This document shows positions 4,328 to 17,122 of a DNA stretch of 64,000 nt, one piece after another (position 1 is the stretch's first letter; each line of letters begins with the position of its first letter). The notes under the pieces are model-generated. The model had not been told where the DNA came from. It did no database searches and was given only the letters and a program-made list of their open reading frames with translations. The position numbers and the translations under genes are program-made. The stretch comes from Thermodesulfobacteriota bacterium. GTDB taxonomy: Bacteria; Desulfobacterota; Desulfobulbia; Desulfobulbales; JBFMBH01. The stretch covers positions 1-64,000 of the forward strand of contig JBFMBH010000001.1 of the NCBI GenBank assembly GCA_040755095.1, read 5' to 3'.

Positions 4328-5539
4328 ATGACTCGTTTCATGCGGACTGGCCTGGTGGTCCTGTCAACAGTGTGCAGCCTTGCGGTCTGTCCACCCGGGC
4401 TGCGGGCGGAGCTGCTGGTGGCGCCGGGGTATGCGCTGGAGGTGGTGGCCCAGGCGCCGCCGTGGCTCTGGATCGCGGACCTGACGTTCAGTCCCGCCGG
4501 CCGGCTGGTCTACTCGGTGGGGGCCGCGTCCCGGGTGCCCTGCGACAGCTACATCGGCATGATCGAGGACGACGGCACGCCGGGGGTCTTTGCCGAGCCC
4601 TGCATCGACAACCCGATCTCGGTGGCCTTCAAGGAGATGACCGGCGAGCTGCTCTTCTTTGCCGAGGGCGCGGGCTACAGCGACTACCTCTACAGCATCC
4701 CCTTTGGCGGCACCAATGCCGATCTGGCCCTCCTGGCCAGGACGTTCGTCCTGAACCGGGATCTGGTGGCAGATACGCAAGGCAACCTCTTTTTGGCCGA
4801 CATCTATCGCGGCGCCATCTTCAAGATCGACCCCTACAGCCGGGTGACCATTTTTGCCGGCGGCACGTCCAACCAGGGGGACGGGTTCCATCTGGATATT
4901 GACGCCAACGACGTCCTCTACTTCACGGATGCGGTGGCGGGCAATGTCTACACGATCACCCCCGGCGGTCAGATGAGCCTCCTCACCGCCGCCTTCGAGG
5001 CCCCCAACGCCATCGCCGTGGACCCGGAGCACATGGTCTATGTCTCCGATGGCCTTACCGTCTATACCCTGTCGCCAGCCGGCGAGATCGCCACCCTGGC
5101 CACCGGGGAAAAGGTCACTGCGCTTGCGGACGGGCCGGATGGGGCGATCTATGCCCTGACCATCGGCAGCACCATCTACCGCATCGTGGCCGATCCCTGT
5201 GGCGCCTTGGCCATCGAGGATTTCCACGGCGAGCCAGCCCGGTTCAACCCCCTGCCCCTGGCCGGCCAGCGCGTTCACCTCGCCGCCACCATCCTTGCCC
5301 CGGCCGACCAGCCGGTCTCCTGGAGCCTGGTGGTCAACGGGCAGACGGTGGCTGCGGGCACGGGGCCGGAGGTGCAGGCCGCCTGGGACGGCCGGATTGG
5401 GGAAGGCGTCCATGACCTGGTCCTGACCGCCACCACCCAGGACGGCGCCTGCCAGGCGGAAAAGACCTTGCAGGCGGCGATCGAATGGCAGGACGACTGC
5501 CGGCTGGCGGTGTCCTTTCTGCCTGACGTTGCGCCCTGA
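4328..5539 (+). CDS. Secreted beta-propeller (NHL/SMP-30-like) protein
   Basis: A 403-aa protein. The ATG at 4328 is chosen because it has an upstream 'aaggaag' ribosome site at 4314-4320 and starts a clean signal peptide (basic n-region MTRFMR, hydrophobic core, likely cleavage after 'GLRAE'). Upstream in-frame ATGs fall in the repeat spacer. Residues ~25-310 show repeated beta-propeller signatures ('IADLTFSPAGRLVYS', 'LFLADIYRGAIFKIDPY', 'AIAVDPEHMVYVSDG'), as in NHL or SMP-30/gluconolactonase-like folds. A C-terminal ~90-residue beta segment with 'VNGQTVAAGTG' resembles an Ig-like or FlgD-like module. No catalytic residues can be assigned. It is probably periplasmic or surface exposed; substrate unknown. 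Confidence 0.7.
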   Translation: MTRFMRTGLVVLSTVCSLAVCPPGLRAELLVAPGYALEVVAQAPPWLWIADLTFSPAGRLVYSVGAASRVPCDSYIGMIEDDGTPGVFAEPCIDNPISVAFKEMTGELLFFAEGAGYSDYLYSIPFGGTNADLALLARTFVLNRDLVADTQGNLFLADIYRGAIFKIDPYSRVTIFAGGTSNQGDGFHLDIDANDVLYFTDAVAGNVYTITPGGQMSLLTAAFEAPNAIAVDPEHMVYVSDGLTVYTLSPAGEIATLATGEKVTALADGPDGAIYALTIGSTIYRIVADPCGALAIEDFHGEPARFNPLPLAGQRVHLAATILAPADQPVSWSLVVNGQTVAAGTGPEVQAAWDGRIGEGVHDLVLTATTQDGACQAEKTLQAAIEWQDDCRLAVSFLPDVAP

Positions 5540-5783
5540 AGACCGGGGGCCATCACCGACACCATTCTCCGCACTCCTGCCGCGTTCGCCACCGGGAGGG
5601 CCCAACTGGTCAATTCCAGCGCGCTCCCCCCGCCGCCACGCTGCCCCGGCAAGGAACCCGCCCGCCGCCTGTCCAGGCCCCCCCGCAAAAAACATATCCG
5701 CCCCAGCCGCGGCCTTTTCCGGCCCGTCGAAAGGACACCGCTGAACGGCACAGACCTTGAGGTGTCCCTGCCCGGGATTGGGT
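5540..5783. other. Intergenic stretch, no gene seen
   Basis: About 240 bp of C-rich sequence between the propeller gene and the promoter-like element before the PHP gene. The frames that cross it have no ribosome site, no domain motif and proline/arginine-rich compositions typical of wrong-frame GC-rich DNA. No convincing terminator hairpin with a T tract is visible. Confidence 0.5.
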
Positions 5784-5813
5784 TTGACAGCCAGCCGCTG
5801 TCCGGCTACTTAT
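5784..5813 (+). promoter_or_regulatory. Possible sigma70 promoter placing the transcript start at the PHP start codon
   Basis: A perfect -35 box TTGACA (5784-5789) is followed, after 18 bp, by a weak -10 'ACTTAT' (5808-5813). Transcription would begin about 6-8 nt later, at or next to the ATG at 5819, giving a leaderless or near-leaderless mRNA. This matches the absence of a Shine-Dalgarno sequence in front of that ATG. The -10 is only 3/6 to consensus, so the call is tentative. Confidence 0.35.
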
Positions 5814-5818
5814 GCCCC

Positions 5819-6682
5819 ATGCCCGGCGTCGATCTCCATCTCCATTCCACGTGCTCGGACGGCACCCTCACCCCGGCGGCCCTGGTCGCCCTGGCCCGGG
5901 AGGAAGGGCTTGCTGCGGCCAGTGTCACCGACCACGACTCGGTGGCCGGGGTGGCGGCAGCTTTGGCCGCCGGCCAGCTGCTGGGTGTGGAGGTGCTCTC
6001 CGGGGTGGAGATCGGCAGCAGCCAGGATGGCGTCCCCTTCCACCTGCTGGGCTATGGCTTTCGCCCGGAGGACCCGGGTCTTCAGGCCCGGCTGGCCCAG
6101 CTGCAGGAGGGCCGGCAGCAGCGCAACCTGGCCATCATCGAGCGGCTGGCGGGCCTGGGCATCGGCATTCGCCTGGAAGAGCTGCAGGCAGAGGCGGCCG
6201 GCGGCCAGATCGGCCGGCCGCACTTCGCCCGCCTGCTCCAGGCCAAAGGCCATGTCCGGTCCGCGCAGGAGGCCTTCCACCGCCTGCTGGGCCGGGGCCG
6301 GCCGGCCTACGCCAGCCGCTTCCGCTTCCCGGCCGCCGAGGCGATCGCCTTTCTCCAGGCGGCTGGCGGCATCGCGGTCCTGGCCCACCCGGGCTCAATC
6401 GGCCTGGCCTCCTTCCGGCGCCTGGAGCGCTTCGTGGGCAAGCTGGCGGCCGCCGGTCTCGATGGCCTGGAGGCGTACTATCCGGATCACGATCCGGCCA
6501 TGGCCGGGCGCCTGGTGCGTCTTGCCACCAGCTGCCGCCTGGTGGTGACCGGTGGCTCGGACTTCCACGGGGCGGCGCGGCCCCAGGCCGCCATGGGGCG
6601 GGTGGGCGGCAAGACCCTGGTGCCCGAGGCGGTCATGGGTCCGATCCGGGAACGCTTGACGCGGCGCCGTCGGTCCGGCTAA
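5819..6682 (+). CDS. PHP-domain phosphoesterase (YciV/TrpH-like 3',5'-nucleoside bisphosphate phosphatase / RNase AM family)
   Basis: A 287-aa cytosolic metal-dependent phosphoesterase. The PHP signature is complete: 'DLHLHSTCSDG' at residues 5-15 (His7, His9), 'TDHDS' around residue 40, a conserved Glu in 'SGVEIGS', and the C-terminal 'GGSDFHG'. The family hydrolyses 3',5'-nucleoside bisphosphates and/or trims RNA 5' ends, using a trinuclear Mn/Fe/Zn site. ATG 5819 is preferred over the in-frame GTG at 5762 because the PHP fold begins directly after it and family members start this way; there is no good ribosome site for either. The gene stands apart from the downstream regulator by 109 bp. 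Length is normal for the family (280-290 aa). Confidence 0.85.
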   Translation: MPGVDLHLHSTCSDGTLTPAALVALAREEGLAAASVTDHDSVAGVAAALAAGQLLGVEVLSGVEIGSSQDGVPFHLLGYGFRPEDPGLQARLAQLQEGRQQRNLAIIERLAGLGIGIRLEELQAEAAGGQIGRPHFARLLQAKGHVRSAQEAFHRLLGRGRPAYASRFRFPAAEAIAFLQAAGGIAVLAHPGSIGLASFRRLERFVGKLAAAGLDGLEAYYPDHDPAMAGRLVRLATSCRLVVTGGSDFHGAARPQAAMGRVGGKTLVPEAVMGPIRERLTRRRRSG

Positions 6683-6791
6683 CCTTTGCGGGCACCCCCG
6701 ACCCGTTCAGTCCGACGTCCCTGTCCTCCCTCGGCGCAGGCGCCATCCTGGCCCCAACGGCAGGGGCTTACCCCCACGAAGCTCTTGGCCC

Positions 6792-8180
6792 ATGCACACG
6801 GTTCTCATCGTCGACGACGAGCCCAACTACCGGCTGATCCTGGCCGAGCTGCTGCGGGACGAGGGCTTCGAGGTCCTGACCGCGGCCAGCGGTGAGGCAG
6901 CCCTGGGGGTGGCCCGGGAGGCGGACCTGGACATGGTGGTCACCGACATGCGCATGCCGGGCATGGACGGCATCGACCTCATGAAGGCCATCAAGTCCAT
7001 GGACCGGGATCTGCCGGTGATGATCATGACGGCCTTCGGCGAGGTGGACAAGGCCGTGGAGGCCATGCGCGCCGGCGCCTACCACTACCTGGTCAAGCCC
7101 TTCAAGAACGACGAGCTGGTGGTCAACGTCCGGAAGGCCATCGAGCTGTTCGGCCTGGTGCGGGAGAACCGGCGGCTCTTGGCCGAGCTGCGGGATCGGT
7201 ACGGCTTCGCCAACCTGGTGGGCAAGACCCCGGCCATGCTGGCGGTCTATCACCTGATCGAGAAGGTGGCGCCCACCCCGGCCACCGTGCTCATCACCGG
7301 CGAATCCGGCACCGGCAAGGAGCTGGTGGCCCGGGCCATCCATTTCCACAGCAACCGCAAGGACGCCCCCTTTGTCTCGGTCAACTGCGCCGCCCTGGCC
7401 GACTCCCTCCTGGAGTCCGAGCTGTTCGGCCACGAAAAGGGGGCCTTCACCGGCGCCGTGGCCTTGCGCAAGGGCCGCTTCGAGCTGGCGGACTCCGGCA
7501 CCCTGTTCCTGGACGAGGTGGGCGATATGTCGGCGGCCCTGCAGACCAAGCTCTTGCGGGCGCTCCAGGAGCGCTCCTTCGAGCGGGTGGGGGGCACGAG
7601 GAGCCTGACCGTGGACGTGCGGGTGGTGGCGGCCACCAACAAGGACCTCAAGGACGAAGTGGGACGGGGCAGCTTCCGGGAGGATCTCTACTACCGCCTC
7701 AATGTGGTGCACATCCAGCTGCCGCCGCTGCGGGAGCGGGCCGACGACATCCCTTTGCTGGTGGCCCATCTTCTGGCCAAGCACACCAGGATCATGGGCC
7801 GGCCGGGGCTTACGGTGGCGCCGGAGGCGTTGCGCTACCTGATGAGCCTGCCCTGGGAGGGCAATGTCCGGGAGCTGGAGAACACGGTGGAGCGGGCGGT
7901 CATCCTGGCCTCCGGCAGCACCATCCAGAAGGAGGACCTGCAGCCGGCGGGCGGCGAGGCGCCGCCCCGCTCGGACTGGTCGGCTGGCCCCGACCTGGAC
8001 CGGCTCCTGCCCAGCCATGTCCCGCTGCCGGACGTCCTGGCCACCGTGGAGGAGCACCTCATCCGGCGGGCCCTGGCCAACGCCGGTCAGGTGCAGGCCC
8101 ATGCCGCCCACGAGCTGGGTATCGCCAAGAGCCTGCTCCAATACAAGATGAAGAAGTACGGCATCGCCAAGCGCAGTTGA
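6792..8180 (+). CDS. NtrC-family sigma54-dependent response regulator
   Basis: A 462-aa, three-domain activator. The N-terminal receiver has the acidic pocket 'VDDE' and phospho-acceptor Asp52 ('[10 protein letters not shown]'). The central AAA+ domain has Walker A 'GESGTGKE', the sigma54-contact loop 'GAFTGA' and Walker B 'LFLDEVGD'. The C-terminus is a Fis-type helix-turn-helix ('[21 protein letters not shown]'). Phosphorylation should switch ATPase activity and open sigma54-RNA polymerase promoters. No sensor kinase is adjacent; the next gene, 13 bp downstream, is an HPt-REC protein that could relay to or from it. Target promoters cannot be named from this window. Confidence 0.92.
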
Positions 8181-8193
8181 GCCGAGGATACCC

Positions 8194-9063
8194 ATGGACG
8201 CCGAGATCTTCCGCGAAGAGGCCAGCGAGCTTCTGGACGACATCGAGGAGACCCTCATGGAGCTGCGGGAGGCGTCTCCGGTGCCGGAGCAGCTCAACCG
8301 GCTGTTCCGGGCCTTCCACACCATCAAGGGGTCGGGGGCCATGTTCGGCTTCGACGGGGTAGCCGCCTTCACCCACGACGTGGAATCGGCCATCGACGCA
8401 GTGCGCCAGGGCACCTGCCCCTTTTCCCCCCCGCTGCTCGATCTCCTGCTCGCCAGCCGGGACCAGATCCTGCGCCTGATCGACGAGGGCGCAAAGCCCA
8501 GCCCTGCCACCGCGGCCGAGGGCGCACGCCTGCGGGAGGCCCTCATTGCCTGGCGCCAGCCGGCCGCCGCCGCCCCGCCCTCCAAGCCGGCACCGCCTTC
8601 TTTGCCGGCCGCAGCCCCGGCCCCGGCCGTCTCGGCGGCGCCTGCACCGGTGGTGCCGGCGGCCCCTGGCGTCCGGCCGTTGCGCATGCTGGTGGTGGAG
8701 GACGAGTTCGTCAGCCGGTATCTGCTCCAGGAGTTCCTGGGCCGCTACGGGGTGAGCCACGTGGCGGTGGACGGCTACGAGGCCATCCTGGCCTTCAAGG
8801 CCGCCCACACCGAAAAGAGGCCCTACGACTTGGTCTGCCTGGACATCATGATGCCGGGTCTGGACGGCCGGGAAGTAGCCAAGGAGATGCGCCGCCTGGA
8901 GACCGAGCTGGTGGCTGCCGCCCCCTGCCGCATCGTCATGACCACGGCGGTCAGCGACAGCGACATCGTCCTCGACATGTTCCAAAGCCAGCTGTGCGAC
9001 GCCTACATGGTAAAGCCCATCAACTTCCCCCGCCTCGCCGAGCTCATCGACCGCTTCTTCTGA
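8194..9063 (+). CDS. HPt-linker-receiver phosphorelay protein
   Basis: A 289-aa protein. Residues ~1-105 form an HPt domain with the phosphorylatable His42 in 'FHTIKGSGAMFG'. An Ala/Pro-rich linker (~120-160) follows. Residues ~163-289 form a CheY-like receiver with acidic pair 'VEDE' and acceptor Asp217 in 'LVCLDIMMPGLDG'. The receiver is strikingly similar to the stand-alone regulator at 21545-21961, which shares the 'YDLVCLDIMMPGLDG' core and the 'MTTA' and 'VKPI' motifs, so the two are probably paralogues within one signalling network. It lies 13 bp after the NtrC-type regulator and is likely co-transcribed. No output domain is present, so it acts by phosphotransfer or protein binding. 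Confidence 0.88.
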   Translation: MDAEIFREEASELLDDIEETLMELREASPVPEQLNRLFRAFHTIKGSGAMFGFDGVAAFTHDVESAIDAVRQGTCPFSPPLLDLLLASRDQILRLIDEGAKPSPATAAEGARLREALIAWRQPAAAAPPSKPAPPSLPAAAPAPAVSAAPAPVVPAAPGVRPLRMLVVEDEFVSRYLLQEFLGRYGVSHVAVDGYEAILAFKAAHTEKRPYDLVCLDIMMPGLDGREVAKEMRRLETELVAAAPCRIVMTTAVSDSDIVLDMFQSQLCDAYMVKPINFPRLAELIDRFF

Positions 9064-9542
9064 TCGCGCCGGCCAGGGTCACCCCTGGCAGCCACCCCTG
9101 CCCGCTCTTCCTTGGTCCCACCGTCCTGCCAGGTTGGACGTCCGTCCTGCCCCACAGGAACGCTCACGCCCCCCCAAATGCTACCCTGCTGCCCTGCCGG
9201 GCCGGTCCGGGCCAGGCCCGGGCCCGGCAACTCGTTCTCAAGAGCCAACGGCCACCATGGCGGTTTTTCGGCCGTCACGCCGCTCAATCGGATGCGTCGA
9301 TGCGTGGGATGGGTGGAGGCGACAGCCGCAACCCAGCACCCGGCCGGGGCGAGATGGGTTGCGCTGCGCTCCACCCATCTACCCTGCTGCCTCTTTTTTT
9401 GCCGCCCGGGCTCATCGCCCTGCCAGGCACCGATCTTGCTTCGAGGCTCTGGCAGGATCGACGGCGGTTCACGGCGTTGGAGACGAGCCGCCGGGCAGCA
9501 CAGCAACCCACACTCAACCTGAATCGGGGAGGCAAGACGGTT
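9064..9542. other. Intergenic region upstream of the multicopper oxidase
   Basis: About 480 bp with no credible gene: the frames crossing it have no ribosome site or motif. It contains two palindromic repeat units (9305-9380, listed separately) and presumably the promoter of the oxidase operon, although no convincing -35/-10 pair could be picked out. The oxidase ribosome site 'ggggagg' lies at the right-hand end. Confidence 0.5.
9305..9380. repeat. Two tandem REP/MITE-like palindromes of the 'GATGGGT(T/G)G..GC..CCACCCATC' type
   Basis: Unit 2 (9352-9380) reads agatgggt - short inner arm - acccatct, a near-perfect palindrome with a GCGC-rich middle. Unit 1 (9305-9336, 'tgggatgggtgg...caaccca') is a diverged relative 16 bp upstream. 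This sequence class (GATGGGTTGCGCTGCGCTCCACCCATC) is familiar as a dispersed extragenic palindrome in many proteobacterial genomes. It sits in a gene-free region, as expected. Confidence 0.65.
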
Positions 9543-11984
9543 ATGAGAACAAGACGTGGCTATTGGCAGATGTTGCTGGCCGTCAGTCTGGCGGCCGCCA
9601 GCGCGGCGCCGGGCCAGGCGGCGCCGTTGCCCGGGGGAAGCCTTGACCCCCAATCCATCCCCAAGTACGTGATCCCGCTCGTCATCCCGCCGGAGCTGCC
9701 GCCGAGCAGCGTCCAGCCGGGCGCCCCGGCCGCCGACTACAACATTGCGGTCCGGCAGTTCCAGCAGCAGATCCTGCCCGGCGGCATCTGGAACACGGTC
9801 AACGGCCGCGGCGACACCTTTGCCCCCACCACCGTGTGGAGCTATGGCCGGGCGGAAGACACCCCACCGGCCGTGGCACCGGTTCCCGGCACCACCTTCA
9901 ACTACCCGGCCTTCACCGTGGAGGCCACCTCAGGTGTGCCGACCACCGTGCGCTGGATCAATGGCCTGGTGGACGCCAACGGCGGCTACCTGCCCCATCT
10001 CCTGCCCGTGGACCAGACCCTGCACTGGGCCAACCCGCCCCAGGACTGCATCGACGGCACCCCCCGCACCGACTGCCGGGGCCAGAGCAGCGCACCCTAC
10101 ACCGGGCCGGTGCCCATCGTTACCCATGTGCACGGCGCCCACGTCGGACCGGAAAGCGACGGCTATCCCGAGGCCTGGTGGCTGCCGGCAGCGAACAACA
10201 TCCCGGCCGGCTATGCCACCCAAGGGGGCTTTTTTGACCAGTACGACCGCACCAACGCGGTGCCCGGATCCGCCTATTTCGGCTACCCCAACGATCAGCC
10301 CGCCACCACCATCTGGTACCACGACCATGCCCTGGGCATGACCCGGCTGAACGTCGTGGCCGGCCCTGCCGGCTTCTGGCTCATCCGCGGCGGCCTCTAC
10401 GGGGATGCCTTCGTCCTCGACGCAGCCAGCGGCCTGCCGGCGGTGCTGCCGGGACCGGCGCCGGTCAACGGCGCAGGAGACCCCAACTTCGACGGCGCGC
10501 ACCGGGCCACCATCCGCGAGATCCCCATCGCCATCCAGGACCGGGCCTTCAACGCCGACGGCTCGCTGTTCTATCCCGACAACCGCGCCTTCTTTGAAGG
10601 CCTGGATCCGGCTTCCCTCAACATCCCCTTCATCCCGGACCCGGCCTCGGACGTCTCCCCGATCTGGAACCCGGAGGTCTTCTTCAACACCATGGTGGTG
10701 AACGGCACCACCTGGCCGGCCCTGGAGGTGGCGCCGGCCAGATACCGCTTCCGGCTGCTCAACGGCTGCACCGCGCGCTTTCTCAACCTGGCGCTCATCC
10801 TGCAAACCCCGGAGGGCGGCGAGCTGCCCTTCTTCCAGATCGGCGCCGAGCAGGGGTTTCTCCCCGCCGTGGTGCGGATCCAGACCGGCACCAGCACCGT
10901 CTATGACGGCACACCCGGCGGCACGGTGGTGCCGGTTCCCTCGGCTGACCAGGCCCTCCTGATGGCCCCCGCCGAACGGGCCGACGTGATCGTCGATTTC
11001 TCGGCCCTGCCGGACGGCACCCGGGTGCGGATGATCAACACCGGGCCGGATGCGCCGTTCGGCGGCTTCCCGGCCGATCCGGTGGCCGACCCGGCCACCA
11101 CCGGCCAGGTCATGGAGTTTGTGGTGCGCAACAGCCTGCTGCAGCCTGGAGACGCCACCACCACCGCTCCGGAGGACCTGCTTCTGCCGGCGGAGCCCCC
11201 TCTGGGACTGGCGGCGACCACCCGGCAGCTGTCCCTCAACGAAATGGATTCCGCGCAGGTCTGCGTGACCGTGGACCCGGCCACCGGGGCCATCACCGCC
11301 GTGCCCGGGGACATTCCCCCCTGCTTTTCCGCCGGCGCGTTCCCCTTCGGACCCCGGGAGGCCACCCTGGGGACGGTCATGGCGGGCGGCATGGCCATGC
11401 CGATGATGTGGATGGACGCGGTCACCGAGGCGCCGCGCCTGGGGGACACCGAGGTCTGGGAGCTCTATAACCTCACCATGGACGCCCATCCCATCCACCT
11501 GCACCTGGTGCGCTTCGAGACCATCGAGCGTCAGGCCCTGGCCGTGGACCCGGCCACCATGATGCCGATGGCGATGGCGGATCCCATGAGCGCCCCGGTG
11601 CCGGCATTGCCCCACGAAGAAGGCTTCAAGGACACGGTGGTGGCCTATCCCGGCGAGGTGACCCGGATCAAGGCCAGGTTCGATGTCTCCGGCCTTTTTG
11701 TCTGGCATTGCCACATCGTCGATCACGAGGACAACGAGATGATGCGGCCCTATGTGGTCCGGCGGACGGCGGACATCAACAGCAACGGCTGTGTGGACCG
11801 GGACGACCTCATCGCTCTCATGCAGGCCATGCGCAGCAGCCTGCCGGCCCACGCCCGGATCGAGTACGACCTCAACGACGACGGCAGCCTCGATATCGTC
11901 GATGCCCGGTACCTGGTGGCCCGATTCACCCGACCGCGCGGCCAGCGGTGCGCGGCGCCGGCCATGCCGGTCAAAATGCGCTAA
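9543..11984 (+). CDS. Secreted CotA/bilirubin-oxidase-like multicopper oxidase with C-terminal dockerin
   Basis: An 813-aa exported oxidase. The ATG at 9543 follows a 'ggggagg' site and opens a signal peptide (MRTRRGYWQ, hydrophobic stretch, AxA near residue 25). Copper ligands are all present: 'HVHGAHVG' (~195), 'WYHDHALGMTRLN' (~257), 'HPIHLH' (~648) and 'HCHIVDHEDNEMM' (~721), i.e. T1, T2 and T3 sites. The family couples oxidation of phenolics, bilirubin or metals to O2 reduction. Residues ~742-805 add two dockerin type I repeats ('DINSNGCVDRDDL' and 'DLNDDGSLDIVDA'), an uncommon appendage for such an oxidase. The next gene, 11 bp downstream, encodes a cohesin-like PEP-CTERM protein, suggesting that the enzyme is docked to a surface anchor. 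Substrate (metal or organic) is not deducible. Confidence 0.9.
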   Translation: MRTRRGYWQMLLAVSLAAASAAPGQAAPLPGGSLDPQSIPKYVIPLVIPPELPPSSVQPGAPAADYNIAVRQFQQQILPGGIWNTVNGRGDTFAPTTVWSYGRAEDTPPAVAPVPGTTFNYPAFTVEATSGVPTTVRWINGLVDANGGYLPHLLPVDQTLHWANPPQDCIDGTPRTDCRGQSSAPYTGPVPIVTHVHGAHVGPESDGYPEAWWLPAANNIPAGYATQGGFFDQYDRTNAVPGSAYFGYPNDQPATTIWYHDHALGMTRLNVVAGPAGFWLIRGGLYGDAFVLDAASGLPAVLPGPAPVNGAGDPNFDGAHRATIREIPIAIQDRAFNADGSLFYPDNRAFFEGLDPASLNIPFIPDPASDVSPIWNPEVFFNTMVVNGTTWPALEVAPARYRFRLLNGCTARFLNLALILQTPEGGELPFFQIGAEQGFLPAVVRIQTGTSTVYDGTPGGTVVPVPSADQALLMAPAERADVIVDFSALPDGTRVRMINTGPDAPFGGFPADPVADPATTGQVMEFVVRNSLLQPGDATTTAPEDLLLPAEPPLGLAATTRQLSLNEMDSAQVCVTVDPATGAITAVPGDIPPCFSAGAFPFGPREATLGTVMAGGMAMPMMWMDAVTEAPRLGDTEVWELYNLTMDAHPIHLHLVRFETIERQALAVDPATMMPMAMADPMSAPVPALPHEEGFKDTVVAYPGEVTRIKARFDVSGLFVWHCHIVDHEDNEMMRPYVVRRTADINSNGCVDRDDLIALMQAMRSSLPAHARIEYDLNDDGSLDIVDARYLVARFTRPRGQRCAAPAMPVKMR

Positions 11985-11995
11985 CGGGGTGCCTG

Positions 11996-12586
11996 ATGAT
12001 GAAAAGATTCCTTGCAATCATCGTATTGGGGATAGCACTCCTGGCCACCGGCGCAGCCGGCGCCAGCACCCTCAGCCTGGATCCGGTGCTGAGTGAGACC
12101 GTGGTCGGTGGCCCGGTGGACTTCAGCGTCCACATCGCCGGCCTGGGCACCGGCCTGCCGCCCTCCCTGGGCGCCTTCAGCTTCCGTCTGGTCTATGATC
12201 CGGCCCTTCTGGCCTTCGACAGCGTCGTCTTCGGCAGCGCCCTGGGCGATCCGGGCCTGGGCGAAAGCCTCCAGCTGGTGGACGCCAGCCTGCCGGGCAG
12301 CGTGCTGGCGGAGAGCCTGTCCCTGCTCTCACCGGCCGAGCTGGATCTGGGCCAGCCGGGCGCCTTCACCCTGGCGAGCCTGCGCTTTCTTGGCCTTACC
12401 CCAGGATTCGGCGAGGTCCATCTGGCCGGGCTGCTGCTGAGCGACGGCTGGGGGTGCACCCTGCAGCCCACGGTGCACGGCATCTCCTTTGTCGCCGTGG
12501 ATCCGGTGCCGGTACCGGCCACGGTCTGGCTGCTCGGCGCGGTCCTCCCTGGCCTGGCCTGCCTCCGGAGGCGAGCTGCCGCCTGA
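11996..12586 (+). CDS. PEP-CTERM-anchored protein with cohesin-like domain
   Basis: A 196-aa protein. The N-terminal signal peptide is 'MMKRFLAIIVLGIALLATGAAG'. Residues ~25-165 form a beta domain of the cohesin/CBM2-like class found in PEP-CTERM proteins ('GAFSFRLVYDPALLAF' is the typical core). The C-terminus 'VPVPATVWLLGAVLPGLACLRRR' has the expected layout of a PEP-CTERM (VPLPA variant) sorting signal: VPxPA, a hydrophobic helix, then an arginine cluster, recognised by an exosortase. The start is ATG 11996, or ATG 11999 in frame one codon later. It begins 11 bp after the dockerin-bearing oxidase, so the two are surely co-transcribed; inference: this is the oxidase's surface receptor. A strong terminator follows. 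Confidence 0.82.
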   Translation: MMKRFLAIIVLGIALLATGAAGASTLSLDPVLSETVVGGPVDFSVHIAGLGTGLPPSLGAFSFRLVYDPALLAFDSVVFGSALGDPGLGESLQLVDASLPGSVLAESLSLLSPAELDLGQPGAFTLASLRFLGLTPGFGEVHLAGLLLSDGWGCTLQPTVHGISFVAVDPVPVPATVWLLGAVLPGLACLRRRAAA

Positions 12587-12618
12587 GACCCCTGCCGCAC
12601 CGGCAGGAGCGCCACCCA

Positions 12619-12657
12619 CAGGCAGCCCCGGATCGTCCCGGGGCTGCCTGTTTGTTT
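12619..12657 (+). terminator. Rho-independent terminator of the oxidase/cohesin operon
   Basis: A 13-bp GC-rich stem (caggcagccccgg / ccggggctgcctg) with a small loop is followed by 'tttgttt'. It ends the two-gene oxidase operon and separates it from the chemosensory operon. Confidence 0.9.
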
Positions 12658-12789: not shown

Positions 12790-13647
12790 ATGGGGATTCA
12801 CGGCGGCCTGCTGCCCGCGGGCCTCATGGCGATCAGCGACCAGGAGCTTGGCCTCATCCGCAGCCTGGTCCGCGAGCGCTTCGGCATCAACCTCACCGAG
12901 CAGAAGCGGGCCCTGGTGGTGGGCAGGCTCCAGAAGTTTCTCCGGGAGCAGGGCTTTCCCAGCTTCCGGGCCTTCTATGACCATCTGGTGAGCGATGCCT
13001 CGGGCCGGGCCCTGGATCAGCTGATCAACCGCATCTCCACCAACTACACCTTCTTCAACCGGGAAAGAGCCCACTTCGACCTGCTGGCCCGGACGGTGCT
13101 GCCGGGGATCATCCGCCAGGAGGAGGCAGCCGGCAGCCGGGATCTGCGGCTGTGGAGCGCCGGCTGCTCCTCGGGCGAGGAGGCGTACCTCCTGGCCATC
13201 CTGCTCATGGAGGCCCTGGGCGTCGCCTACCCCCAATGGCAGGCCGGGGTTCTGGCCACGGACATCTCGGAGCGGGTGTTGGCTGTGGCCCGGCAGGGCG
13301 TGTATGCTGAAGATTCCCTCGCCGACCTGCCGGATTCCTACCGCAAGCGCTACTTCCAGCGCCTGGCCGACGGCCGCTGGCAGGTGGCGGGCCGCCTGCG
13401 GCAGGAGGTCACCTTCCGGCGCTTCAATCTCATGAGCCATACCTTTCCGTTCAAGAAGCCTTTCCAGGTCATCTTCTGCCGCAACGTCATGATCTACTTC
13501 GACCGCCCGACCAGGGATGCCCTGGTAAGCCGCTTCCAGAGCGCTCTGGAGCCGGGAGGCCTGCTCTTCATCGGCCACTCCGAATCACTGGGCCGGGAGC
13601 AGGGCCTGTTCCGCTACCTCATGCCGGCGGTCTATCAGCGGCTCTAG
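12790..13647 (+). CDS. cheR: CheR chemoreceptor glutamate methyltransferase
   Basis: A 285-aa SAM-dependent O-methyltransferase that methylates receptor glutamates for sensory adaptation. The N-terminal CheR all-alpha domain ('ISDQELGLIRSLVRERFGI', 'LINRISTNYTFFNRE') and C-terminal Rossmann domain ('LRLWSAGCSSGEEAYLLAILL', 'IFCRNVMIYFD') match the family. Length is normal. A ribosome site 'ggggagg' sits 7 nt before ATG 12790; an internal ATG at 12826 is also possible. It is the first gene of the operon and is separated from cheB by 2 bp. The receptor at the end of the same operon ends in an aromatic xZxxZ pentapeptide, which would fit CheR tethering. Confidence 0.93.
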   Translation: MGIHGGLLPAGLMAISDQELGLIRSLVRERFGINLTEQKRALVVGRLQKFLREQGFPSFRAFYDHLVSDASGRALDQLINRISTNYTFFNRERAHFDLLARTVLPGIIRQEEAAGSRDLRLWSAGCSSGEEAYLLAILLMEALGVAYPQWQAGVLATDISERVLAVARQGVYAEDSLADLPDSYRKRYFQRLADGRWQVAGRLRQEVTFRRFNLMSHTFPFKKPFQVIFCRNVMIYFDRPTRDALVSRFQSALEPGGLLFIGHSESLGREQGLFRYLMPAVYQRL

Positions 13648-13649
13648 CC

Positions 13650-14765
13650 ATGGCCCTGACGCCGAAGCGCCGCATCCGGGTCCTGGTGGTGGACGACTCC
13701 TCCCTGGTCCGCAGCATCCTCAGCCAGGGCCTGGCCCAGGATCCGGGCCTCGAGGTGGTGGGTGCGGCCCCGGATCCGTACGTGGCCCGGGACAAGATCG
13801 TCGAGCTCTCTCCCGATGTTCTGACCCTGGACGTGGAGATGCCCAGGATGGACGGGGTGGAGTTCCTGCGCCGGCTCATGCCCCAGCACCCCTTGCCGGT
13901 GGTCATGGTGTCGGCGCTCACCGCCCGGGGCAAGAGGATCACCCTCGAGGCCCTGGAGGCCGGGGCGGTGGATTTCGTCACCAAGCCCTCCACGGACGTG
14001 GCCCGGGGGCTGGCCGCCATGCTCCTGGAGCTGCGCACCAAGATCAAGATCGCTTCCACCGCCAACGTCAGCCACTGGAAGGGCCGGCGGACCGGGCTCG
14101 CCGCCGCCGCCCTGCCCGCCCCGGGGGCCCTGGCAGAATCCACGGACAAGGTCATCGCCATCGGCGCCTCCACCGGCGGCACCGAGGCGATCCGCCAGGT
14201 GGTCGCCGCCCTGCCCGTGGCTTGTCCCGGTGTGGTCGTTGTCCAGCACATGCCCGCCGGCTTCACCACCATGTTTGCTGACCGGTTGAGCTCCCTGTGC
14301 GCCATGGAGGTCAAGGAGGCACAAACCGGCGACCGGGTGAGGCCGGGCCGGGTGCTCATCGCCCCCGGCGACTTCCAGATGAGCGTGGTGCGCTCCGGCG
14401 GCGTCTACCAGGTGGAATGCCGGCGGGGGGAGAAGGTGTGCGGCCATTGCCCCTCGGTGGATGTGCTCATGCACTCGGTGGCGCAGCAGGTGGGTGCCAA
14501 TGCCGTGGGCGTCATGCTCACCGGCATGGGCCGGGACGGCGCCGCCGGCATGCTGGCGATGCGCCAGGCCGGGGCCCGGAACATCGCCCAGGACGAGGCC
14601 TCCTCGGTGGTCTTCGGCATGCCCAGGGAGGCGTTCGAGCTGGGCGGCGCCGAGCGGCTGGTGCCCCTGGCCGACATCGCCGCCCAGGTCCTGCGCCTGG
14701 TCGCCGACTCACCCCGGCCGGCGGCCGCCGGCCGGGACCACGACCCAACCAGGAAACGGATATGA
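13650..14765 (+). CDS. cheB: CheB protein-glutamate methylesterase/glutaminase
   Basis: A 371-aa response regulator-esterase that removes receptor methyl groups when phosphorylated by CheA. The receiver domain has 'VVDDS' and acceptor Asp61 ('TLDVEMPRMDG'). The C-terminal esterase has the catalytic triad: Ser in 'IGASTGGTEAI', His in 'VQHMPAGFT' and Asp in 'LTGMGRDGAAGM'. The ATG follows the cheR stop by 2 bp. The stop overlaps the cheA start as ATGA (14762-14765), implying translational coupling. Confidence 0.95.
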   Translation: MALTPKRRIRVLVVDDSSLVRSILSQGLAQDPGLEVVGAAPDPYVARDKIVELSPDVLTLDVEMPRMDGVEFLRRLMPQHPLPVVMVSALTARGKRITLEALEAGAVDFVTKPSTDVARGLAAMLLELRTKIKIASTANVSHWKGRRTGLAAAALPAPGALAESTDKVIAIGASTGGTEAIRQVVAALPVACPGVVVVQHMPAGFTTMFADRLSSLCAMEVKEAQTGDRVRPGRVLIAPGDFQMSVVRSGGVYQVECRRGEKVCGHCPSVDVLMHSVAQQVGANAVGVMLTGMGRDGAAGMLAMRQAGARNIAQDEASSVVFGMPREAFELGGAERLVPLADIAAQVLRLVADSPRPAAAGRDHDPTRKRI

Positions 14766-17122
14766 CCCTGCCCCCCACAAGCGAAATGCTGGAGATCTAT
14801 GCCGAGTTCGTCCTCGAATGCCGGGATCTCTTGGACCAGCTGGAGCCGGACATCCTGGCCCTGCGGGAGGTGGCCGTAAGGCCCGAGGCCATCCCTCCGG
14901 AACAGCTGGATGTCCTCAACGCCATCTTCCGCCTGTTCCATTCCATCAAGGGAGGGGCCGGCTTTCTCAACCTGACCCGGCTTGCCTCCACCGCCCATGC
15001 GGCCGAGAGCCTGTTGGATCTGGTCCGCACCGGCCAGCTCCTCCTGGCGCCGGGCCACATCGATCTTCTGTGCCGCACCTGCGACTTCATCCGCTCCGCC
15101 CTGGACCAGGTGGCCGCCGAGCTCAGTGACGAGGCCAGTGCCCCGGAGGCGGCGGCGGTGGCGGCGGATCTCCACAACGCCACTGCCCTTGCCGCACCGG
15201 CGCCACCGCCCCGGGCCACCCCGCCCCCCCCGGCCCCAGGCCCGGAGCCGGAGCCGGCCGCCCCGGAGGAGGAGACCCCTCCGGAGCTGATTCTGACCAT
15301 CACCCCGGAGATGCGGCAGCGCTTCGTCCAGGAGGCAGACGAGATCCTCCAGGAGGTGGAAGGTCTGCTCCTGGACTGGAGCAAATCGCCGGCCAGGGTC
15401 GAGCTGGTCCATGAGCTCTTCCGCCGCCTCCACTCCTTCAAGGGCAACTGCGGCTTCATGGGCTACGGCGATCTGGAAAGGCTCAGCCACCGGGCCGAGA
15501 CCATCCTCGATCTTGCCCGCCAGGGCCAGCTGGCCAACCAGGCCCCGATCGCTGCCACCCTCTTGAACCTCCTGGACGTATGGAAAGGGGCGGTAGCCGC
15601 CATTGCCACCGACGGCGCGGGCGAGATCATTGGGGTGGATCTCTACCTGGAGCTGCTGGACGATCTGCTGCCCGCCGGGCTGCGGCTGTCCTCCGGCAAG
15701 AAGCCCCTGGGCGCGATCCTGGTGGAACGGGGGGTGGTGACGGCCTCCGATGTGGATCTGGCCCTGGCCCGCCAGAAAGCCCCCATCGGCGAGATCCTGG
15801 TGGAGATGGGCGCCGCCACCCCGGAGCAGGTCTCCGAGGCCCTGGCGGAGCAGGCCGTGGCGCCGGCGGCCGGTCCGCCCCGCACCGAGGCGCCCCTGGC
15901 GGCCGCCATCCGGCGCCAGGACATCCGGGTGGATCTGGACAAGCTGGACAGCCTCATCAACCTCATCGGCGAGCTGGTGATCGCCGAGAACATGATCCTC
16001 CACTCCCCGGATCTCGCCGGCCTGGAGCTGGACCGCTTCAACAAGGCGGCCCAGCAGATGAGCAAGATCGTCAAAGAGCTCCAGGAGGTGGCCATGACCA
16101 TCCGGATGATCCCGGTGGCCGGCCTCTTCCGCCGCATGACCCGCCTGGTTCACGATCTGTCCGGCAAATGCGGCAAGAAGGTGGATCTGGAGCTGGTGGG
16201 GGTCGAGACCGAGCTGGACAAGACGGTGATCGAGACCATCACCGATCCCCTGGTGCACCTCATCCGCAACTCCCTGGACCACGGCCTGGAGCCGCCAGAG
16301 GAGCGGCAGGCCAAAGGCAAGCCGGCCACCGGCCGGGTGACCCTGTCCGCCAGCCACGAGGAGGGGGAGGTCTGGATCACCATCGCCGACGACGGCCGGG
16401 GCCTGGACCGGAAGAAGATCCTGGCCAAGGCCGCGGCCCGGGGCCTCCTGGCCGGCGACGGCGCCGAGCTCTCCGACCGGGAGGTGGCAGGCCTCATCTT
16501 TCTGCCCGGCTTCTCCACGGCGGACCAGGTCACCGATGTCTCCGGTCGCGGGGTGGGCATGGACGTGGTCAAGCAGAATCTGACCAAGATCAACGGCAAG
16601 ATCGACGTCACCTCCCAGCCCGGCCAGGGCACCCGGATCGTCCTGCGCATCCCGCTCACCATGGCCATCATCGACGGCATGCTGCTGCGGGTGGGCGCGG
16701 CCACCTACATCCTGCCCATCCTGGCCATCCGGGAGTCCTTCCGGCCGGCGGCCCAGGCCATCACCGTCTCCCCGGACGGCCAGGAGCTGGTGATGGTCCG
16801 GGAGCATCTCATCCCGGTGCTGCGCCTGCACGACCTCTATGGGGTCACCCCGGACAGCCCGCGCCTGGACGAAGGGATTCTCATCGTCCTGGAGGCCCAG
16901 GCCGCGACCATCTGCCTGTTCGTGGATGAGATCCTGGGCCAGCAGCAGACGGTGATCAAGGGCCTGTCCGGCTACATCAGCCACATGGGCAGCCTGACCG
17001 GCATCTCCGGCTGCACCATCCTGGGCAACGGCGAAGTCTGCCTGATTCTGGAGGTGGGGGCGCTCATGGAGCTTTCGGGCGCCCGCCGCGGCCTGGTGGA
17101 CCGGAGGGCGCCCGGGGCCTAA
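14762..17122 (+). CDS. cheA: CheA-type chemotaxis histidine kinase with two HPt domains
   Basis: A 786-aa signalling kinase. It carries two HPt domains, with His60 ('LFHSIKGGAGF') and His224 ('LHSFKGNCGF'), split by an Ala/Pro/Glu linker. Residues ~315-362 contain two copies of a short 'LGAILVERGVV/IGEILVEMGAA' helix-hairpin repeat, a module also seen in GspE/PilB N-termini. A P3 dimerisation domain ('LDKLDSLINLIGELVIAENM') follows, then the HATPase with N-box 'HLIRNSLDHGLEPPEER' and G boxes 'DDGRGLD' and 'GRGVGMDVVK', and a C-terminal CheW-like P5 domain. There is no P2 motif. Two phosphorylatable histidines suggest branched relay to the several receivers encoded next door. The start overlaps cheB by 4 nt. 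Confidence 0.93.
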   Translation: MTLPPTSEMLEIYAEFVLECRDLLDQLEPDILALREVAVRPEAIPPEQLDVLNAIFRLFHSIKGGAGFLNLTRLASTAHAAESLLDLVRTGQLLLAPGHIDLLCRTCDFIRSALDQVAAELSDEASAPEAAAVAADLHNATALAAPAPPPRATPPPPAPGPEPEPAAPEEETPPELILTITPEMRQRFVQEADEILQEVEGLLLDWSKSPARVELVHELFRRLHSFKGNCGFMGYGDLERLSHRAETILDLARQGQLANQAPIAATLLNLLDVWKGAVAAIATDGAGEIIGVDLYLELLDDLLPAGLRLSSGKKPLGAILVERGVVTASDVDLALARQKAPIGEILVEMGAATPEQVSEALAEQAVAPAAGPPRTEAPLAAAIRRQDIRVDLDKLDSLINLIGELVIAENMILHSPDLAGLELDRFNKAAQQMSKIVKELQEVAMTIRMIPVAGLFRRMTRLVHDLSGKCGKKVDLELVGVETELDKTVIETITDPLVHLIRNSLDHGLEPPEERQAKGKPATGRVTLSASHEEGEVWITIADDGRGLDRKKILAKAAARGLLAGDGAELSDREVAGLIFLPGFSTADQVTDVSGRGVGMDVVKQNLTKINGKIDVTSQPGQGTRIVLRIPLTMAIIDGMLLRVGAATYILPILAIRESFRPAAQAITVSPDGQELVMVREHLIPVLRLHDLYGVTPDSPRLDEGILIVLEAQAATICLFVDEILGQQQTVIKGLSGYISHMGSLTGISGCTILGNGEVCLILEVGALMELSGARRGLVDRRAPGA

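Follow-up and report, generated by a model that had tools for sequence, protein, structure and literature searches.

A dockerin-bearing copper oxidase next to a predicted cohesin with an exosortase sorting tag: a possible plug-and-socket display module

The oxidase/cohesin locus

We analyzed a 64,000-nucleotide stretch (hereafter the window) at the start of contig JBFMBH010000001.1 from a Thermodesulfobacteriota bacterium (assembly GCA_040755095.1). Two adjacent genes on the forward strand encode a multicopper oxidase and a small protein combining a cohesin domain with a PEP-CTERM tail. Their features are as follows.

9543..11984 (+), multicopper oxidase (CotA-laccase-like, 813 aa) with N-terminal signal peptide and C-terminal dockerin
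10125..10133 (+), copper motif HVH (H195, H197)
10320..10328 (+), copper motif HDH (H260, H262)
11487..11504 (+), copper motif HPIHLH (H649, H652, H654)
11706..11741 (+), copper motif HCHIVDHEDNEM (H722, C723, H724, H728, M733)
11769..11918 (+), type I dockerin domain of the oxidase
11772..11807 (+), dockerin Ca-binding loop 1 (DINSNGCVDRDD)
11868..11903 (+), dockerin Ca-binding loop 2 (DLNDDGSLDIVD)
11996..12586 (+), cohesin-PEP-CTERM protein (196 aa), start ATG 11996 or 11999
12062..12505 (+), single cohesin domain
12506..12574 (+), PEP-CTERM tail (VPVPATVWLLGAVLPGLACLRRR): motif, membrane helix, basic end
12618..12651 (+), intrinsic terminator hairpin after the two-gene unit

The oxidase has a Cu-oxidase_2 domain (6.4e-20) and its closest solved relatives are CotA-type laccases (7z5p and CotA 1gsk, E about 1e-54 or better). 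The copper-ligand residues are invariant in two orthologues from other genomes that share 69-71% identity. The dockerin (PF00404, residues 743-791) scores over the Pfam cut-off in the genome search (23.7 versus 22.9 bits), although it falls just under it when the protein is searched alone (18.6 bits). Both F-hand loops are complete. The best 20 structural matches of the dockerin model (pLDDT 80.8) are all dockerins, but with E 0.16 or weaker, so that the sequence evidence carries this assignment. The second gene starts after a gap of 11 nt, and a hairpin with a 14-pair stem and a T-rich tail (fold z -6.2) ends the unit. Of note, the pair sits inside a chemotaxis-type cluster, with an Hpt-receiver protein before it (window 8194-9063) and CheR, CheB and a CheA-like gene after it (12790-17122).

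The cohesin is barely seen by Pfam (PF00963, 13.9 bits against a cut-off of 24.1, E 0.065). A relative in the same profile family, from genome G018 of our survey (locus L135), scores 49.4, so this is a divergent branch. Three further tests support the assignment. First, a profile built from relatives of the protein without signal and tail (A5, which includes the window protein and gives it 161 bits) retrieves 12 PDB sequences, all of them cohesins, cohesin-like modules or scaffold proteins, with a best E of 0.0011. Second, the AlphaFold model (pLDDT 77.7) matches cohesins first in Foldseek (1.3e-10) and in VIA (Z 16.8, rmsd 2.0 over 135 residues; the Archaeoglobus non-cellulosomal cohesin 2xdh is at Z 15.2). 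Third, when left out of training the protein scores E 2e-25, while the other PEP-CTERM proteins of the genome stay at background. The tail is over the TIGR02595 cut-off of 16 (16.6 bits, and 20.4 in the genome search), whereas the VPLPA variant model TIGR03370 is below its cut-off (17.2 versus 25.35); the model shows a helix at residues 153-173, and the signal peptide was judged by eye.

Dockerins, cohesins and exosortases in the same genome

The first-pass annotation proposed that the dockerin and cohesin form a two-part, non-cellulosomal surface display system with an exosortase-sorted anchor. Both genes and the terminator that it described are confirmed, and every genomic prediction that we could test held. 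The 4.5 Mb assembly contains two exosortases that score as XrtD, the VPLPA-CTERM-specific type rather than XrtA (427.6 and 401.4 bits, cut-off 400), with Cys-Ser-Gly, Asn-x-x-Arg and His-x-x-x-Gly motifs, plus a partial XrtH. We found 22 PEP-CTERM matches over cut-off; two PEP-CTERM hits, on contigs 19 and 228, have the same scores and tail and are possibly a repeat or an assembly duplicate. A type II secretin gene is also present.

Seven dockerin matches fall in five genes. On contig 2 we identified a second clear pair (4891-9320 of locus L043): an S8 subtilase (1217 aa) with a C-terminal dockerin, then a cohesin-PEP-CTERM protein (left-out E 2e-6), then another, non-cohesin PEP-CTERM protein. 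On contig 108 (L045, 7609-10219), a cytochrome with four CXXCH motifs and an N-terminal dockerin is followed by a PEP-CTERM protein of unproven fold that does not score as a cohesin. Contig 15 (L044, 7474-11199) carries a right-handed beta-helix protein with several dockerin repeats, convergent with a contig-end fragment of an XrtH-type exosortase, and contig 132 (L046, 2594-12043) a giant PKD-like repeat protein (over 3100 aa) with dockerin repeats and no cohesin found on the same contig. The two cohesins found in the genome each stand alone in a small protein. With no multi-cohesin protein and no plant-polysaccharide cargo found, we reject membership in a cellulosome.

Recurrence of the pair with different cargo

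A scan of 84,980 named genomes for relatives of the oxidase returned 80 loci, in 69 of which a complete oxidase end and at least 900 nt downstream are present. Most relatives end soon after the last copper motif. Five of the 69, besides the window's own, have a dockerin, and four of these are followed directly by a cohesin gene with a PEP-CTERM-type tail (L140, Desulfurivibrio SURF_16; L141; L142; and L158, Pelotalea chapellei DSM 13688). In L158, the tail was read by eye (APVPEPAACLLVLVALTCILFVRKR) and is below our profile threshold. The fifth, L197 from Geotalea toluenoxydans, has no cohesin within 8 kb. In contrast, none of the 64 oxidases without a dockerin has a cohesin anywhere in the locus (Fisher p 5.8e-6). 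In L147, L148, L161 and L181, oxidase relatives in Geobacter-type bacteria and Nitrospirae carry C-terminal repeats (such as YLDINGNNAWDGTPTD) where the window's oxidase has a dockerin. Another copper-oxidase-like gene lies in a cluster with two dockerin proteins but no cohesin gene nearby (L102, 4962-14030; L106).

We then performed the reverse search. The cohesin profile gives 24 hits in 18 of the 257 genomes of the class, one of which (G009) is not a PEP-CTERM protein. Of the other 23, 21 have a dockerin gene as direct neighbour, one has a dockerin gene within 2.5 kb and one (G018) has none nearby. A few of the 23 are damaged: the tail lies in a shifted frame in G007, G256 (contig C393) and G006, and another G256 copy (contig C261) is cut by a contig end. 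In the wider phylum, 9 of 12 further small cohesin-PEP-CTERM genes have a dockerin gene close by, including three pairs on one single-contig chromosome, G293. Random expectation is well below one such neighbour, and chance adjacency can be rejected. Not every PEP-CTERM gene beside a dockerin is a cohesin, however: in leave-one-out scoring the L045 protein, L105/L129 and L115 do not score as cohesins, and L117 does so only weakly. In L244 and L256, the cohesin-PEP-CTERM gene is flanked by dockerin genes on both sides, suggesting one socket for several cargos.

Cargos adjacent to these cohesins include copper oxidases, MauG-type di-haem peroxidase, cytochromes with four or five haem motifs, subtilases, 5'-nucleotidases and other phosphoesterases, and sortilin-like proteins. 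The window oxidase, its orthologues and the MauG peroxidases of L103 and L245 share one dockerin subtype (..CVDR.DL....YDLN.DG....DAR.L...FT...G..C), and the cohesins beside the oxidases and beside the L245 peroxidase are of one subtype too. The same dockerin and cohesin subtype occurs with different cargo: oxidase in L103/L107, MauG peroxidase in L245, sortilin-like in L108. Over 23 supported pairs, dockerin and cohesin distances correlate (Mantel r 0.79; 0.68 over 16 non-redundant pairs; p 5e-5). We keep this result only as supporting evidence since linked genes inherited together co-vary even without binding, although shared subtypes under different cargo are harder to explain that way.

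A putative display module

We consider it likely, pending any evidence of binding, that the two genes form a non-cellulosomal display module. In this model the two proteins, probably co-transcribed, would pass the inner membrane by their Sec-type signal peptides. The cohesin protein would be held in the membrane by its PEP-CTERM helix until cut by XrtD, and would then go outside (outer surface or exopolysaccharide) by the exopolysaccharide route proposed for PEP-CTERM proteins (PMC1569441, PMC12188702). The oxidase would leave by another route, perhaps type II secretion, and dock through its calcium-loaded dockerin, one enzyme per socket. The sorting step is better supported for this genome than for all. 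Seven genomes of the class with a cohesin-PEP-CTERM gene (G006, G012, G018, G049, G079, G105, G136) gave no exosortase with PF09721 or TIGR04178, some of them rated 97-100% complete and two of them (G012, G049) 99-100%; G061 (100%), with a dockerin/PEP-CTERM pair whose cohesin status is unproven, is another. This may reflect gaps in draft genomes, limits of the search or a different processing enzyme. Exosortase co-occurrence across the class is only moderate (10 of 17 genomes with cohesin-PEP-CTERM against 96 of 257 overall), and we do not use it as proof.

Alternatively, the pair may bind but stay in the periplasm or on the inner membrane, XrtD processing being slow or absent, so that the cohesin protein simply tethers the oxidase near its electron donor or copper source. 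Periplasmic copper oxidases of the CueO type exist, PEP-CTERM proteins can stay periplasmic or enter the matrix (PMC12188702), and several relatives with the pair have no detectable exosortase. We hold this to be unlikely, as this genome has two XrtD exosortases and many PEP-CTERM proteins, and other cargos (subtilases, cytochromes, nucleotidases) are typical of outside enzymes. Less likely still, the cohesin-PEP-CTERM protein may be a matrix or floc adhesin whose partner is not the neighbouring dockerin, the genes being neighbours because both serve biofilm life. PEP-CTERM proteins do serve floc and biofilm formation (PMC9850573, PMC12188702), but adjacency is specific to dockerin genes and to cohesin-type PEP-CTERM proteins, and oxidases without a dockerin never have the neighbour. 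Finally, that the dockerin is a vestigial or purely calcium-binding tail and the cohesin-like protein a relic kept by co-inheritance is very doubtful: non-cellulosomal dockerins and cohesins are widespread and mostly untested (PMC5244752, PMC9012536), but here both Ca loops are intact, subtypes co-vary across divergent cargos and the pair persists over the phylum.

Cohesin-dockerin pairs and PEP-CTERM sorting are each known. In cellulosomes, single-cohesin anchor proteins (for example, the OlpA and OlpC cohesins, 3ul4 and 4dh2) mount dockerin enzymes on the cell surface; they share with our pair the cohesin fold, the type I dockerin with two Ca loops and the separation of anchor and enzyme. 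Here, however, the host is Gram-negative, a PEP-CTERM/exosortase tail replaces the Gram-positive anchors, cargo is redox or hydrolytic instead of cellulases, no multi-cohesin scaffoldin was found and there is one socket per neighbouring cargo. Non-cellulosomal cohesins and dockerins are known from Archaeoglobus (2xdh), C. perfringens (NagJ/NagH, 2ozn) and ANME archaea and their sulfate-reducing partners (PMC9012536, PMC10553843), without a link to PEP-CTERM sorting in the passages we consulted; in our case the cohesin carries the sorting tag and sits next to its presumed cargo. Compared with the PEP-CTERM/exosortase system (Haft 2006, PMC1569441), type XrtD / VPLPA-CTERM, the signal peptide, Pro-rich motif, membrane helix and basic end are shared, but the sorted protein is a cohesin that can carry a second, untagged protein. 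Geobacter genes encoding dockerin, cupredoxin and laccase domains were noted in a transcriptome study (PMC6199725). Within the literature we searched, no paper mentions PEP-CTERM together with dockerin or cohesin, and what appears new is their combination as a recurrent two-gene module with swappable cargo.

More tentatively, we may hypothesize that Desulfobacterota, and probably other Gram-negatives, run a general plug-and-socket display system, in which each operon carries its own specificity-coded cohesin socket on an exosortase tag. Unrelated enzymes (copper oxidase, MauG peroxidase, multihaem cytochromes, proteases, nucleotidases) could then be mounted outside the cell and exchanged by swapping dockerins, and the system could build extracellular redox arrays.

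Non-cellulosomal cohesins and dockerins have been counted for years without a clear role. The present analysis gives a concrete, recurrent two-gene unit with a sorting enzyme, cognate pairs and cargo lists, including one in a cultured strain, Pelotalea chapellei DSM 13688, so that function can be tested directly. It also offers new orthogonal cohesin-dockerin pairs for Gram-negative surface display, and would explain how enzymes without a sorting tag could be placed by exosortases.
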